DNA from: Aliiroseovarius sp. Z3
Lineage (GTDB): Bacteria; Pseudomonadota; Alphaproteobacteria; Rhodobacterales; Rhodobacteraceae
Assembly: GCF_029105185.1 (NCBI RefSeq)
Contig: NZ_JAFMZK010000003.1
Location: forward strand, 186,001-250,000
Reading direction: 5' to 3'
Length of the DNA stretch: 64,000 nucleotides
Below the pieces are notes generated by a model. The model saw only the letters and a program-made list of their open reading frames with translations. It was not told the DNA's origin and did no database searches. The position numbers and the translations under genes were made by a program. This document shows positions 25,842 through 35,351 of the stretch, one piece after another. Within the stretch, counting starts at the first letter, position 1; every line of letters begins with the position of its first letter.

Positions 25842-26991
25842 GAATTGGCAAATCGGGGGCTTTGGGCTTTACGTCCACTGGCCCTTTTGCCAATCCAAAT
25901 GCCCTTATTGCGACTTCAACAGCCATGTCGTCGCGTCGATTGATCACATCGCTTGGCTTGACGCCTATGTCGCTGAAATCGACCGCTACGCTATGGAAAC
26001 GCCCAACCGTGTTCTCAGTTCGATCTATTTCGGCGGTGGCACGCCCAGCCTGATGGCCCCAGCGACGGTTGCCGCGATCATCGACCGGGCGGCACAGCAT
26101 TGGACCTTTGCCAATGACGTCGAAATCACGCTGGAGGCCAATCCCGGTTCGATCGAGGCGCGGAACTTCGCTGGATACAAGGCGGCGGGCGTCAATCGGA
26201 TTTCAATCGGCGTTCAGGCGTTGAACGATACGGACCTGAAACGGCTGGGACGACTGCATTCGGTCAGTGAGGCAAAACAGGCTCTATCCTTGGCCAAATC
26301 CCTGTTTGACCGGGTCAGCTTCGACCTGATCTATGCCCGTCAGGATCAATCGCTCGCCGCCTGGCAAGCCGAACTTGAAAGCGCGCTGGCACATGACCCC
26401 GACCACCTGTCGCTGTATCAACTGACCATTGAACCGGGCACCGCCTTCGGGGCGCGGTTCGATGCAGGCAAGCTGCGCGGCTTGCCCGAAGAAGATCTGG
26501 CGACCGACATGTTTTTCCTGACGCAATCCCTGTGTGACACCGCCGGGTTGCCAGCCTACGAAGTGTCGAACCACGCGAAGCCCGGACAGGAAAGCCAGCA
26601 CAACCGCATCTACTGGCGATCCGGCGATTGGGTGGGTATCGGTCCGGGCGCACATGGCAGGCTGACACTGAACGGCGTGCGCAGCGCGACGGAAACCGCA
26701 CTTGCCCCGAAAGGCTGGCTTACTGCCGCCACCTCGGGTCACGGCGAACGTCAGCGCACAGTTATCCCCCGCGACGAGCAGATCACCGAGTTTTTGCTGA
26801 TGGGCTTGCGAACGACGGAAGGCATTGATCTGCGCCGTATGGAGCAGCAGCTTGATTTCACACCAAATATCAATAAAATCAATGACTTAATTGATCTGGA
26901 GCTTATCAGCATCAAAGATCAGCGGTTAATGGCGACCCCAAAGGGCCGCCCGGTGCTAAACGGTATTCTTCGTGAACTGATCCCAGACTAG
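25834..26991 (+). CDS. hemW: Radical SAM heme chaperone HemW (HemN-like)
   Basis: A radical SAM protein of about 385 residues. The 4Fe-4S motif [17 protein letters not shown] (CxxxCxxC) lies just after the start, then [27 protein letters not shown], and FDLIYARQ. HemW-type proteins lack the extra N-terminal residues of true coproporphyrinogen dehydrogenases and act in heme delivery. The start is uncertain: TTG at 25834 with GGGGC nearby, or GTG at 25798; neither is ATG. It overlaps rdgB and converges on parB with a 4-base overlap. Confidence 0.88.
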
Positions 26992-27869
26992 GACGTCAGT
27001 TTTCCGCACAGGGTATCGAGATCATCCAGCGAGCCATAGCGCACTGTAACGGTGCCGCTTTCCCCGCCCACCGCATGGTCGATCTGAACCTTCATCCCCA
27101 AAGCAGCTGACAAATCACCTTCAAGCGCACGGGTGTCCGCATCTTTTTCAGGCTTCTGACGCGGTTGATTTGGCGCTGTGGGTTTCGGCGATTTTGCCAA
27201 TGCCTCGGCGGCACGGACGGACAGGCCCTTGGCAATGATCTGGCGCGCCAGGTCGATTGGATTATCTGCGGTCACCAAGGTTCGCGCGTGCCCCGCGCTC
27301 AGCTTGCCGTCGCGCACAAACTCCTGCACCTCTTCCGGTAGGTTCAACAGACGCAACAAGTTGGCAATGTGGCTTCGGCTTTTGCCCAGCGCCTCTGATA
27401 CCTTTTCCTGTGTGTGACCAAACCGATCCATAAGATCTCGATAGCCTGCAGCCTCTTCGATCGCGTTCAGATCAGCCCGCTGAATATTTTCGATGATAGC
27501 GACTTCCAGGGCTTCGGTATCGCTATATTCTCTAATAATAACAGGAAGTTCGTGGAGTTGGGCCATCTGGGATGCCCGCCAGCGGCGTTCGCCTGCAACG
27601 ATCTCGTATTCACCCTCTGCATCAGGCTTCGGACGCACGATCAGGGGTTGGATTACACCCTTCTCACGGATCGAGGCCGCAAGATCGTTCAGCTGTTCTT
27701 CGGTAAACTGACGCCGCGGCTGTTCAGGGTTTGGCGTGATTTTTTCGACCGGCACAACCAGATCGGCGCGACGCGCGGTTTGCGTGTTTGGCGCTTCTTC
27801 GGTCGTCACATCGGCCATCAACGCAGACAAGCCGCGACCCAGGCCACGTTGTTTTTGATTCTTGCTCAT
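26988..27869 (-). CDS. parB: Chromosome partitioning protein ParB
   Basis: A 293-residue CTPase clamp that loads at parS sites and spreads on DNA. N-terminal RGLGRGLSALMAD is the ParA-interacting segment; IRPNP-like ITPNPEQPRRQF, the CTP-binding GERRWRA box, ENIQRADLNAIEEA and the helix-turn-helix TQEKVSEALGKSRSHIANLLRL follow. The C-terminal dimerisation domain ends in RYGSLDDLDTLCGKL. The ATG at 27869 comes one base after the parA stop. Two perfect parS sites are 1.4 and 3.3 kb away in rsmG and mnmG. Confidence 0.96.
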   Translation of the reverse strand: MSKNQKQRGLGRGLSALMADVTTEEAPNTQTARRADLVVPVEKITPNPEQPRRQFTEEQLNDLAASIREKGVIQPLIVRPKPDAEGEYEIVAGERRWRASQMAQLHELPVIIREYSDTEALEVAIIENIQRADLNAIEEAAGYRDLMDRFGHTQEKVSEALGKSRSHIANLLRLLNLPEEVQEFVRDGKLSAGHARTLVTADNPIDLARQIIAKGLSVRAAEALAKSPKPTAPNQPRQKPEKDADTRALEGDLSAALGMKVQIDHAVGGESGTVTVRYGSLDDLDTLCGKLTS

Positions 27870-27870
27870 C

Positions 27871-28674
27871 TCAGCCTCTTCTATTGCGTATGGACAATTC
27901 GGATGCCAGCTCGCGGTAAGCCTGGCTGCCCTTTGACATCGGATCATACATCAGAACGGGCAACGCAAAAGACGGGGCCTCGCTGACGCGGACATTGCGC
28001 GGGATCATGGTGTCGAACACAAGTTCACCCAGATTGCCGCGCGCGTCAGCTTCGACCTGACGGGACAGGTTGTTCCGGGTATCAAACATGGTCAACACAA
28101 TCCCCTCGATCCTAAGATCGGCATTGGCGGTTTGACGCACTTCGCGAATGGTCAACATCAGTTGAGAAAGACCTTCCAGCGCGAAAAACTCGCTTTGCAG
28201 CGGGATCAGAACGCTATCCGCGGCCACCAGCGCATTTACGGTAAGAAGGTTCAGCGACGGCGGGCAGTCGATCAGGATATAGTCCAGATCCATCTGGCCC
28301 AGCCCCGTCGCCCGCACAGCATCATGCAACAAATGACTGCGCTTTTCGTTCGAGACCAGTTCGATATCCGCCGAGGACAAGTCAGTGGTCGCTGGCGCAA
28401 TGAACAGGTTTTCGATATCGGTTTCTTGCAAGACATCGGTCAGCGGCGCTTCTTCCAGCAAAAGGTCATATGTTGTGAGTTTTCGATCCGCGACCTCTAC
28501 ACCTAGCCCCGTCGACGCATTCCCTTGCGGGTCGAGGTCGACAAGAAGCACCCTGCTTCCCTTCTCGGCCAAAGCAGCGCCAAGGTTGATCGTGGTGGTC
28601 GTTTTGCCCACCCCGCCTTTTTGATTGGTAATCGCAATGATCTTTGGGCCATAGCCATTGATGATATCAGGCAC
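27871..28674 (-). CDS. parA: Chromosome partitioning ATPase ParA
   Basis: A 267-residue deviant-Walker ATPase that moves ParB-parS complexes and so segregates the origin. KGGVGKTT at residues 19-26 carries the signature lysine, with LLVDLDPQGNAST next and IDCPPSLNLLT near 135. Start is a GTG at 28674 overlapping the rsmG stop by eight bases; parB follows after one base. Chromosomal rather than plasmid type is supported by its place in mnmE-mnmG-rsmG-parA-parB. Confidence 0.96.
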   Translation of the reverse strand: MPDIINGYGPKIIAITNQKGGVGKTTTTINLGAALAEKGSRVLLVDLDPQGNASTGLGVEVADRKLTTYDLLLEEAPLTDVLQETDIENLFIAPATTDLSSADIELVSNEKRSHLLHDAVRATGLGQMDLDYILIDCPPSLNLLTVNALVAADSVLIPLQSEFFALEGLSQLMLTIREVRQTANADLRIEGIVLTMFDTRNNLSRQVEADARGNLGELVFDTMIPRNVRVSEAPSFALPVLMYDPMSKGSQAYRELASELSIRNRRG

Positions 28675-29287
28675 GTCTTAGATCTCCGATCTCCAAAACA
28701 ACAGCGTTTGGGTTTGTCTTGCTGGGATATGTATCAAGTTCAAACTGCCATTTTTCAAGCGCTTCTTCGACCTCGGCGCGGTAATTCTCGCCTTTCAGGT
28801 AAATCGCTGTTCCCCCTGCCTTCAGGTGCAAATCAGCAAGGTCCAGCAGGCTGGTCAGCGAGGTCAGCGCCCTAGCCGACACCACATCCGCCCCCAAAGG
28901 CGTAACCGCTTCAATTCGCTTGGAAATAATATCGGCGTTGATACCCGTCTCGCGCACAACCGTTCGCAGAAATGTGGCCTTCCGCAGATCGCTTTCGATG
29001 CAGATCGTGTTGCGGCCGGGGTCGAATTCTTGCGCAAGTATAGCCACGATCAGCCCCGGAAACCCGCCGCCCGTCCCCATATCGCACCATGTTGCGACCT
29101 TTGGCTGCGACAAACGGAATATCTGCGCCGAATCCAGAAAATGGCGGGTCCACAAAGATGACAGCGTTGATGGCGAGACGAGGTTGATTGCGGGATTCCA
29201 CTTCTCAAGCAACTTCGCGTAGATATTCAATCGCTCCATTGTTTCACGTGAAACATCAAGCCCGGCAAGGGCGTCTTGGCCCATCAT
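28667..29287 (-). CDS. rsmG: 16S rRNA (guanine-N7) methyltransferase RsmG (GidB)
   Basis: A 206-residue SAM-dependent enzyme methylating N7 of G527 in 16S rRNA. The N-terminal [22 protein letters not shown], and the SAM loop [16 protein letters not shown] near residues 68-83 are family hallmarks. Its ATG at 29287 overlaps the mnmG stop (ATGA). Codons 11-17 (DVSRETM) are written by a perfect parS palindrome, so this part of the protein is constrained by the DNA site. Confidence 0.95.
29240..29255. promoter_or_regulatory. parS site (ParB loading) inside rsmG
   Basis: The exact 16-base palindrome TGTTTCACGTGAAACA, identical to the consensus parS of chromosomal ParB proteins. It lies within the rsmG coding region, 1.4 kb from parB. 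Confidence 0.95.
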
Positions 29288-31161
29288 GCTGAACGTTTCC
29301 GGCTGGCGCGGCGCAATCTGGCAAGGATCAATGTCAACGCAGCAGGCGTCATCCCCTCGACCCGGGCCGCCTGTGCAAGCGTTCTTGGGCGTGCCAATGT
29401 TAGTTTGCTGGCCAACTCATTGGAAAGCCCTTCCATCTCATCATACTGGAAATCGTCCGGAATGCGTTGCGCTTCATCCCGCTGTAGCGCCTCGACATCG
29501 CGCGCCTGTCGTTCGATATAATTGGCATACATCGCATCACGCGAAATCTGGGTCTGTATCTCACCTGATACATCCGCAAAAGAGCTGTCCAAATCCGCGA
29601 TCATCGCATAATCCACCGTCGGAAAGGCCAGAAGCTCAAAAGCGGTGCGCTTTGTGCCATCCTTGCGCACCGTCAATCCCAGTCTTTCCAAATCCTGAGG
29701 TGTAAAAGTCCGCCCGGTAAGGGCTGCTTTCGCACGCGCAAGCCCTTCTGCCTTATTTTCAAAGGCATTTTGACGCTCAGGCCCGACACAACCCAAAGAT
29801 ATTCCCAGCGGGGTCAGCCGCTGGTCGGCATTGTCAGCGCGCAGTGAAAGGCGGTATTCAGCCCGCGATGTGAACATGCGGTACGGTTCGGTCACACCGC
29901 GGGTGATCAGGTCATCCACCATCACACCCATATAGGAATGCGCCCGCGAAAAGATGACCGGATCACGATTCAGGGCGGTCAGCGCAGCATTCAGCCCTGC
30001 GATCAGACCTTGTGCAGCGGCTTCCTCGTATCCGGTTGTTCCGTTGATCTGCCCGGCCAGATACAACCCTGGCACATCGCGAAGTCGCAAGGTCTCGGTC
30101 AGTGATCGGGGGTCCACATAGTCATACTCAATCGCGTAACCCGGTTGCAAAATCTCGGCCTGCTCCAACCCGATGATCGACCGGACATAGGCATCCTGCA
30201 CCTCGACCGGAAGGGATGTGCTGATCCCGTTCGGATAGACCGTGTGATCGTCCAAGCCTTCTGGTTCGAGGAAAATCTGGTGCGAGTCCTTGTCCGCGAA
30301 TCGAACAATCTTATCTTCGATCGACGGGCAATAGCGTGGTCCGACCCCGTCGATATGACCGCCATACATTGCGGACCGATCAAGGTTTTCGCGAATGATC
30401 TCATGGGTTTGTGCATTCGTGTGGGTAATCCCGCAAGAAATCTGCCGCGCCTCGGGTGTGGTGTTCAGGAACGAAAAGACCACCGGGTCATCATCCCCCG
30501 GCTGGCTATCCAGAATGTCCCAATTGATCGTGCGCCCATCCAGACGCGGCGGTGTGCCGGTCTTGAGCCGCCCAAGCGGCAGACCAAAACTGTCGATCCG
30601 CTCAGCCAGCTTGACCGAAGGACGATCCCCCATGCGGCCACCCGCAGTTTGCTGATCGCCCACATGGATGATGCCCCGCAGGAACGTGCCCGTGGTCAGA
30701 ATGACGGCATGCGCCGAAATGGTGCTACCGTCCTGCAAGACCACACCACCAACGCGCCGACCATGCATCACAAGATCGGTCGTCTCGCCTTCGATGACGG
30801 TCAGGTTCGTGGCTTTCGCGATCTCTTCCTGCATCGCGGCGCGATAAAGTTTCCGATCCGCTTGCGCACGCGGCCCTTGAACCGCAGGGCCTTTGCGTCG
30901 GTTTAGCAGTCGGAACTGAATACCCGCGCGGTCGGCAACGCGACCCATCAGGCCATCCAGCGCGTCGATCTCGCGCACCAAATGACCCTTGCCCAACCCG
31001 CCAATGGCAGGATTACAGGACATAACACCCAAATCGCTTTTCCGCAGTGTAATCAAAGCGGTGCGCGCGCCAAGACGGGCGGAAGCGTGTGCCGCATCTG
31101 CGCCTGCGTGGCCTCCGCCAACGACGATCACATCGAAATCCAAATGTTTCACGTGAAACAC
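29284..31161 (-). CDS. mnmG: tRNA uridine 5-carboxymethylaminomethyl modification enzyme MnmG (GidA)
   Basis: A 625-residue FAD enzyme that with MnmE modifies wobble U34 of tRNAs. The FAD loop [14 protein letters not shown] is near residues 11-24, followed by [22 protein letters not shown] region segments, the GTFLRG and RLKTGTPPR motifs, and [21 protein letters not shown] near 365. The start is a GTG at 31161 directly within a parS palindrome (M-F-H-V-K-H); a GTG at 31152 would have a better-spaced ribosome site (GGAG, 8 bases). It is 21 bases after mnmE and overlaps rsmG. Confidence 0.95.
31145..31160. promoter_or_regulatory. parS site (ParB loading) at the start of mnmG
   Basis: A second exact TGTTTCACGTGAAACA, 1.9 kb from the first. 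It covers the mnmG initiation codon region, so ParB binding would sit on the translation-start DNA of mnmG. Confidence 0.95.
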
Positions 31162-33904: not shown

Positions 33905-34354
33905 CTAGAATTTCATCACGACCGAAAAGACGATGACCAACATCAGGATCGTAGGAAACTCGTTCATCATTCGATATCGCCGCCCCGTCAGCACATTGGT
34001 GCCAGTCATGAACTCCTTGCGCCGCGCGCCCAGCCACATGTGAAACCACGTCATAAGGATAACCGACAGGGCTTTGGTCCACGGCCAGATCATTGACCAA
34101 TCGACAAGGCCCGGTGTGAAGACAAGCAAAAGACCAAACAGCCAGGTGCTGATCATCGCCGGATTCATGATCGCCTTCAGCAGGCGACGTTCCATGGTCT
34201 GAAACAGATCATCCGTTTCATTGCCTGATCCGACAACCTCGACATGATAAACAAACAGACGTGGTAAATAGAAAAGCCCAGCCATCCAGGCAATCACGGA
34301 CACGATGTGAAGTGATTTTGTCCAAGGGTAAATATCGGCCAGAAATTCACCCAC
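33905..34354 (-). CDS. hemJ: Protoporphyrinogen IX oxidase HemJ
   Basis: A 149-residue membrane protein with four hydrophobic helices, a heme-dependent protoporphyrinogen oxidase. The first helix region reads YPWTKSLHIVSVIAWMAGLF followed by YLPRLFVYH, with the conserved His residues; the WFHMWLGARR segment and C-terminal NEFPTILML are typical. The start was set at GTG 34354 because AGGAG at 34363-34367 is eight bases upstream; the frame also has a GTG at 34363. It is the last leftward gene before the AT-rich origin candidate. hemH and hemW are elsewhere in the window. Confidence 0.9.
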   Translation of the reverse strand: MGEFLADIYPWTKSLHIVSVIAWMAGLFYLPRLFVYHVEVVGSGNETDDLFQTMERRLLKAIMNPAMISTWLFGLLLVFTPGLVDWSMIWPWTKALSVILMTWFHMWLGARRKEFMTGTNVLTGRRYRMMNEFPTILMLVIVFSVVMKF

Positions 34355-34440
34355 TCTCAGCACTCCTGTTCACACGGGTCCGGTCTGCCCTTCTTAAAAT
34401 AATAAAGAAGAAGAAAGAAAGATGATGTTTATGTAGGGGC

Positions 34441-34449
34441 TGTGAATAA
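34441..34449 (-). promoter_or_regulatory. DnaA box (exact TTATNCACA)
   Basis: Reads TTATTCACA on the leftward strand, a full match to the DnaA consensus TTATNCACA, inside the AT-rich origin candidate. Confidence 0.7.
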
Positions 34450-34484
34450 TGGGGATTATTAAGTTGTCCCAGTGTTTGTTAACA

Positions 34485-34493
34485 GGTGGATAA
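34485..34493 (-). promoter_or_regulatory. DnaA box-like site
   Basis: TTATCCACC on the leftward strand, eight of nine to TTATCCACA, 44 bases from the exact box and in the same orientation. Confidence 0.55.
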
Positions 34494-34560
34494 TAAGTGA
34501 TTGGGTAAGAGGTAAAATACAGTAAGCCATTGTTATAAAATAGAATATGGAAATGTCTAT

Positions 34561-34569
34561 TGGGGATAA
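34561..34569 (-). promoter_or_regulatory. DnaA box-like site
   Basis: TTATCCCCA on the leftward strand, eight of nine to TTATCCACA, next to the most AT-rich 60 bases. Confidence 0.5.
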
Positions 34570-34732
34570 CCAATAGGATAAATGTCAAGGGTGGGCAAAA
34601 AACCTCACCCCCGCAAAAACCACTTTCCACAGTGGAGGAAACTTGAAAACTGTCTTAGGAAAGGGATGAGTTTTCCAGTCGTGTCGTCAGGGTCGTGTTT
34701 TCCGATTTTCTGAGCACCGGAACAAACAGAGT

Positions 34733-34741
34733 TTTTCCACA
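34733..34741 (+). promoter_or_regulatory. DnaA box-like site before maf
   Basis: TTTTCCACA on the rightward strand, eight of nine to TTATCCACA, 10 bases before the maf start. A further 7-of-9 site (CTTTCCACA) is at 34623-34631. Confidence 0.4.
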
Positions 34742-34751
34742 GGGTTATCAC

Positions 34752-35351
34752 ATGGCCTTCTCTCTGACTTTGGCTTCGGCTTCGGAAATTCGGGCGCAAT
34801 TGTTGCGCAATGCCGGGGTTGAAATTGATATCCAGCCCGCCCGTATTGACGAAGAAACCATCCGCGCTTCGTTAGAGGCTGATGGGGCAAGTCCCCGCGA
34901 TCTGGCCGATGCGTTGGCCGAATTCAAAGCCCGCAAGATCAGTGAGAAAAATCCAGATCATCTGGTTCTGGGATGTGATCAGATCGCCGAGCTTGGGGGT
35001 AAGGTTTTGTCCAAGCCGCGGGATGAAGAGGACGCGAAAGCGCAACTGACCTTGATGTCGGGTCAAACCCATCGCTTGTTGTCGGCGGCCGTTCTGTATC
35101 AGGATGGCAAGCCCCTGTGGCGCCATGTGGGTGTCGTTCGTATGAGGATGCGAAATTTGTCTGACGACTACATCGCCAATTACATCACCAGAAACTGGGA
35201 AAGCATCCGCCATTCTGTTGGGGCGTATAAGCTGGAAGAAGAAGGCGTTCGACTGTTCGCCAAGGTGGATGGCGACTATTTTAACGTGCTGGGTTTGCCG
35301 CTGACAGAACTGCTGTCATACCTGATCTTGCGAGGAGATCTTGAAATATGA
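34752..35351 (+). CDS. maf: Maf-family nucleotide pyrophosphatase
   Basis: A 199-residue Maf/HAM1-fold protein, of the group that hydrolyses modified or canonical nucleoside triphosphates and is linked to septum formation. The N-terminal LTLASASEIRAQLLRNAGV and DEETIR match the family, with LGCDQI, SKPRDEEDA and the C-terminal GDYFNVLGLPL. The ATG at 34752 gives the usual MAFSLTLAS start. It begins the rightward run from the origin candidate, overlapping aroE by four bases. Confidence 0.9.
   Translation: MAFSLTLASASEIRAQLLRNAGVEIDIQPARIDEETIRASLEADGASPRDLADALAEFKARKISEKNPDHLVLGCDQIAELGGKVLSKPRDEEDAKAQLTLMSGQTHRLLSAAVLYQDGKPLWRHVGVVRMRMRNLSDDYIANYITRNWESIRHSVGAYKLEEEGVRLFAKVDGDYFNVLGLPLTELLSYLILRGDLEI

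Follow-up and report, generated by a model that had tools for sequence, protein, structure and literature searches.

In Caulobacter crescentus, the chromosomal origin Cori is located between hemE and COG1806, and the origin sequences described in that study are similar only among close relatives (PMC1914354). The oriC of Ketogulonicigenium vulgare, predicted with Ori-Finder, adjoins maf, and this position is conserved in Rhodobacteraceae according to DoriC; the accessible text of that report gives no box layout, no conserved module and no comparison across the class (PMC4793288). Origins were also assigned with Ori-Finder in 101 Rhodobacteraceae, with eight strains lacking a clear oriC; a word search of the main text of that paper found neither maf nor hemE (PMC6699656). 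Marker-frequency analysis exists for Cereibacter and Paracoccus (PMC13342612). The parAB genes lie near the origin in almost all genomes analysed in a further study (PMC8116508).

The window considered here is a stretch of 64,000 nucleotides, positions 186001-250000 of contig C5 (507.5 kb) in a draft genome of 3.52 Mb in 11 contigs. By HemJ, its nearest named relatives are Aliiroseovarius, Rhodobacteraceae. The divergent genes hemJ and maf are separated by a gap of 388 bp (Table 1). We conclude that this gap is almost certainly oriC, the DnaA-dependent origin of the main chromosome, and presumably its only origin. The original prediction had made the same assignment, and it is supported by the strand skew, the conservation of DnaA boxes, profile matches in the family and the class, the parS sites, and the published origins adjacent to maf. 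It had given 397 gene-free bases; the gap proper is indeed gene-free, and the leftmost 9 bp, from 34355, belong to hemJ. The start codon of hemJ is GTG at 34363, and ATG in the other 20 rows of the genus. The predicted gene directions hold on both sides, with parB-parA-rsmG-mnmG-mnmE-rho-hemJ pointing left and maf-aroE-(coaE)-dnaQ pointing right; the gene between aroE and dnaQ is presumably coaE. Past dnaQ, secB is oriented left.

The gap shares both the family and the maf neighbour with the predicted origin of K. vulgare, and we know of no essential difference between the two (PMC4793288). The likeness to Cori is that of an AT-rich gap with DnaA boxes, and the family profile described below finds matches beside hemE in other families. 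The flanks differ. Here they are hemJ and maf; hemE is on a different contig (C4:96960), and no gene of PF03618, which we take to be equivalent to COG1806, was found in the genome. Another difference from Cori is the lack of an exact TTAA-N7-TTAA, which we take to be the CtrA-type site, in the gap; one site with a single mismatch overlaps box 3. There is no GANTC, presumably the CcrM-type motif, in the gap. This motif is strongly depleted in window 1-64000 (75 sites against 306 expected from shuffles), and is absent between 34167 and 37604, a stretch that includes the origin.

Table 1. Features of the hemJ/maf gap and its surroundings (window coordinates)
Feature	Position	Strand	Basis or remark
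parB	26988..27947	-	TIGR00180 above cut-off
parA	27871..28674	-	ParA-family matches; none of the 25 shown above its own curated cut-off
parS, exact 16-mer	29240..29255		sequence scan
parS, exact 16-mer	31145..31160		sequence scan
hemJ, left flank	33905..34363	-	TIGR00701 135.9 bits, slightly below cut-off 138.05
oriC candidate, entire hemJ/maf gap	34364..34751		388 bp; skew minimum, boxes, low GC
A-rich trinucleotide array (AAT/GAA/GAT repeats), candidate unwinding start	34399..34427	+	beside box 1; conserved in genus and family
Family profile R1 match (unwinding module)	34409..34489	+	E 9.2e-14
DnaA-trio-like block, 3'-5' from box: TAG TAG AAA GAA	34415..34426	+	four consecutive NAN triplets; spacer of 14 to box 1
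G-rich spacer GTAGGGGC between array and box 1	34433..34440	+	commonest base per column 0.48-0.92
DnaA box 1 (TTATTCACA)	34441..34449	-	1 mismatch; 95% mean column conservation in genus
DnaA box 2 (TAATCCCCA), abuts box 1	34450..34458	-	2 mismatches; 97% mean genus conservation
DnaA box 3 (TTATCCACC)	34485..34493	-	at most 1 mismatch; 90% genus conservation
Least stable 100 bp of C5; alternative or second unwinding region	34489..34588		nearest-neighbour energy
DnaA box 4 (TTATCCCCA)	34561..34569	-	at most 1 mismatch; 97% genus conservation
Weak DnaA-like box (CTTTCCACA)	34623..34631	+	2 mismatches; 73% genus conservation
DnaA box (TTTTCCACA), 10 bp before maf start	34733..34741	+	at most 1 mismatch; 99.5% mean genus conservation
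maf, right flank	34752..35351	+	TIGR00172 above cut-off; start codon ATG at 34752

The exact DnaA box TTATCCACA does not occur in the gap. The looser pattern TTWTNCACA is matched twice, at 34441 on the minus strand and at 34733 on the plus strand, and thus the "one exact" box announced earlier was loosely worded. At most one mismatch from the consensus yields four boxes in the gap (34441-, 34485-, 34561-, 34733+), and at most two mismatches add two further boxes (34450-, 34623+), six in all. This is the cluster of DnaA boxes by which an oriC is recognised. Three of the better boxes lie in one orientation within 130 bases (34441-34569, minus strand), and 17 of the 60 bases at 34501-34560 are G or C, both exactly as first described. 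Among 2536 tiles of 397 bp on C5, the number of boxes at either threshold is reached by one tile only, which overlaps the gap, and the same tile is the only one to equal its low GC content. By nearest-neighbour energy, the least stable 100-bp and 200-bp stretches of C5 lie in the gap. With 50-bp stretches, nine sites outside the gap are lower in stability than any within it. The gap thus contains an AT-rich candidate unwinding element at the scale of 100 and 200 bp, not at that of 50 bp.

The cumulative GC-skew of the complete contig C5 has its minimum at 220393, which is position 34393 of the window and falls inside the gap, in agreement with the original prediction; the keto-skew minimum is at 34420. 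A one-step fit to the skew of C5 places the break best at 220 kb, with 307 kb close (residuals 1.5526 and 1.5558). As the draft consists of 11 contigs, the genome-wide minimum rests on C5 and on 43 sampled stretches of 20 kb from the ten other contigs, eight of which were sampled by two to six stretches each. These stretches contain no lasting switch from minus to plus. Switches from plus to minus were seen in the samples of C1, C2 and C10; one may mark the terminus, and the others may be rearrangements or ends of replicons. In a congener (G015, contig of 3,210,813 bp), the first 100 kb has its skew minimum at 70091, within the homologous segment 70071-70466. Interpolation from 40 stretches over this whole contig gives a minimum near 74 kb and a maximum near 1.71 Mb, roughly opposite. 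In a genome of another genus (G406), sampled sparsely by 20 stretches, the bottom of the curve is flat; interpolation puts its minimum at 2.70 Mb, and the module is located at 2.457 Mb.

The dnaA gene was considered as the site of the origin and rejected, as the skew minimum is not at dnaA. A second match to the DnaA family (PF00308, 37 bits) was observed at a contig end (G000:C3:66-359); it is perhaps an Hda-like protein cut by that end.

A DNA search matched the segment in every one of the 21 genomes of the genus, over nearly its full length in eight (own included) and in pieces in 13. Gap lengths range from 384 to 388 bp across the 21 loci of the genus and from about 364 to 469 bp across 78 named loci, of which three (L069-L071) belong to the same genus; the lengths for named loci are approximate where the maf alignment starts past residue 1, and L136 was set aside. 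Of 101 loci, 100 yielded both hemJ and maf, invariably in divergent orientation. Mean identity in the genus alignment is 0.919 over the six boxes (54 columns) and 0.678 over the remaining 334 columns (Mann-Whitney p 1e-13, with every column counted as independent). Thus the boxes on which the prediction rested are kept in relatives, at 92% against 68%. The sequence GGGGATTA in box 2 is invariant across the 21 genus rows. In 68 of the 78 named loci, a plus-strand box with at most two mismatches lies no more than 40 bp from the estimated start of maf. In the window, the terminal box at 34733-34741 may tie maf expression to DnaA.

These data bear on the possibility that the gap is a divergent promoter of hemJ and maf with regulatory DnaA boxes, and that replication starts elsewhere, for example at dnaA. 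DnaA boxes can regulate genes, the terminal one, highly conserved in the genus, stands 10 bp before the maf start (Table 1), and dnaA itself is 71 kb from the gap, at C5:149445. However, the skew reaches its minimum in the gap rather than at dnaA, the length of the gap is nearly constant in the genus, its box content, GC content and stability are extreme for the contig, and the module profile has matches beside hemE in other families. We therefore regard a mere promoter as very improbable.

The only exact parS sites in the whole genome are the two listed in Table 1, both 3-5 kb from the gap. The origin candidate is thus accompanied by two exact parS sites, parB and parA. The proximity of parAB and parS could also point to the origin of a plasmid or a secondary replicon inserted at this place. 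However, a scan of 17 proteins of the window recognised no plasmid initiator, hemJ and maf diverge at each of the 100 loci where both were located, and every matched genome of the family has a single profile match. Such an insertion is extremely improbable, and a chromosomal origin remains the preferred reading.

The alignment of 75 rows from the family with the window revealed a module with nearly fixed spacing. It consists, in this order, of the A-rich array, GATGATG, TGTAGGG, box 1, GGGGATTA, and one more TCCACA box, degenerate in the window genome. The module is exactly 86 bases long in 55 of 76 rows, and the closest 86-base row is at most 67.4% identical to that of the window, position by position. 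G34427, next to the trio-like block, is kept in 97% of the 75 family rows. At position 34439, in the spacer, C is the commonest base in the family and the window has G. The TCCACA-type plus-strand box, common in other genera and degenerate here at 34476-34484 (TTGTTAACA), adjoins the retained minus-strand box 34485-34493. Loci L091 (no maf) and L136 (partial maf) were dropped before the family footprint, and L069-L071 were left out as belonging to the same genus. L073, titled Aliiroseovarius, was kept in the 75 rows; its Maf is 67% identical.

An nhmmer profile of the 75 rows, applied to 1.40 Mb of the window's own genome, found the segment with E 1.3e-11, the next match having E 2.4. Repeated without L073 (74 rows, none titled with the likely genus), it gave E 1.1e-11 and again 2.4 for the next match. 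A second profile, R1, is an Infernal sequence model without base pairs built from 66 of the 75 rows, L073 included; near-duplicates (L086, L145) and rows differing in length (L100, L106, L109, L116, L123, L132, L133) were left out. In its own genome the module is the sole R1 match at E <= 1 among the best 150 of 300 first-look candidates.

R1 has one match each in 126 of 150 family genomes, own included (best 29 first-look candidates per genome), some of which may have supplied rows for the profile. Among the best 29 candidates per genome, no match was observed in the other 24. Twenty of these were probed with HemJ, and a HemJ match was found in 14. A permissive nhmmer search over 15 loci from genomes with no match gave E <= 0.01 in five, where the E-values are lenient owing to the search space of 51 kb. 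This suggests that some of the genomes with no match carry divergent copies. In one family genome (L260:2979-3073), a module match lies roughly 1.0 kb away from the estimated start of hemJ, with no match to maf in the locus; it seems that in this genome the flank changed while the module stayed.

The layout resembles the basal unwinding system (BUS) of Bacillus subtilis, as surveyed in PMC8287927, in its tandem boxes, the G-rich spacer and the triplets with central A at 14 bp. The window has four NAN trios at spacer 14, where BUS is defined by at least three within 16 bp of a DnaA box. The triplets here read mainly TAG from the box, whereas in BUS they read GAT. In the relatives, the array read from box 1 has a period of three bases, with A commonest at positions 10, 13, 16, 19 and 22. 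A first count with free choice of the box gave at least three trios in 23 of 75 rows. Since free choice could take the wrong box of the tandem pair, the trios were recounted at a fixed box position in the 54 ungapped rows of the 75. At least four trios were then found in 25 of 54 relatives, against a mean of 14.7 and a maximum of 23 in 300 shuffles. However, at the threshold of the survey, at least three trios, the relatives as a set are not above shuffles (35 of 54 against a mean of 32.3), which is a further difference from BUS as described there (PMC8287927). Among boxes of C5 with at most one mismatch (n=69), 14.5% reach at least three trios and 4.3% at least four. A function of the array as DnaA-trios is plausible from its sequence.

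One possibility is that the origin is indeed here and that melting begins in the AT-rich stretch 34489-34588 rather than at the array beside box 1. This stretch is the least stable of its length on the contig, and the count at three trios gives the array no excess over shuffles. On the other hand, the stretch is poorly conserved in the genus, but the family conserves both the array and its distance from box 1, and both enter the profile that has matches beside hemE in other families. Melting in the AT-rich stretch is thus a minority possibility, unlikely but to be reckoned with, and the array is our preferred candidate for the site of unwinding.

The mechanism may be envisaged as follows. DnaA-ATP would bind the minus-strand boxes at 34441-34569 and the plus-strand box at 34733. 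A DnaA filament starting from the abutting boxes 1 and 2 would run leftward over the G-rich spacer onto the array at 34399-34427, and/or DnaA would open the least stable 100 bp. The duplex would melt and admit the helicase, and forks would depart both ways; bidirectional forks would account for the switch in skew and for the divergence of the genes. Bound to the two parS sites, which lie 3-5 kb leftward, ParB would move the new origins apart.

In a sample of the class, R1 has a match (E <= 0.01) in 84 of 289 genomes (best 15 candidates per genome). With E-values calculated per genome, about three chance matches are expected. Five of the 84 genomes, own included, belong to Rhodobacteraceae; in three of the 84 the model matches twice. 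For the 79 matched genomes of other families, hemE was located independently (PF01208, E <= 1e-30). In 63 of the 79 the best R1 match is within 1 kb of hemE, the actual distances being 25-356 bp (median 76). There is no hemE match in six, and hemE is elsewhere in ten; in two of these ten (G052 and G201), the second R1 match is the one beside hemE. Ten flanking ORFs of distant loci were tested, and eight of them are URO-D. Among the 20 best loci, four of them of Rhodobacteraceae, Maf was matched near the module in 16. The matches beside hemE indicate that what the profile picks out is the hemE side of the Caulobacter-type origin.

The simplest reading of these sequences would be that the origin DNA stayed while the neighbouring genes changed. 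We lean towards the view that many alphaproteobacterial chromosomes keep a homologous origin core of about 86 bp from a common ancestor, with exchanged flanks: hemE and COG1806 in Caulobacter, hemJ and maf here. Such an ancestral core could well comprise the trinucleotide array, the G-rich spacer, the tandem DnaA boxes and the further box. However, most of the class sample, 205 of 289 genomes, has no R1 match at E <= 0.01 among the best 15 candidates per genome. It is also possible that the matches across the class reflect convergence of generic origin parts. No description of the 86-bp module across the class was found in the open-access literature searched, which is no proof of its absence.

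The origin adjacent to maf in Rhodobacteraceae has been described already (PMC4793288), and the point added here is that its core is recognisable in some distant alphaproteobacteria. The origin of the window is itself of modest interest. Its placement within a few hundred bases orients the replichores and gene dosage. The putatively homologous core reaching other families is the part worth following, and a profile built from Rhodobacteraceae only that picks the hemE side in other families may be the more useful by-product. A module of this kind, if shared, would be of use where skew and box counts give no answer, as in the eight strains without a clear oriC (PMC6699656), and it offers defined bases for mutation in harmless laboratory species. 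If the common core is real, many origins of the class would be findable by a sequence profile alone.
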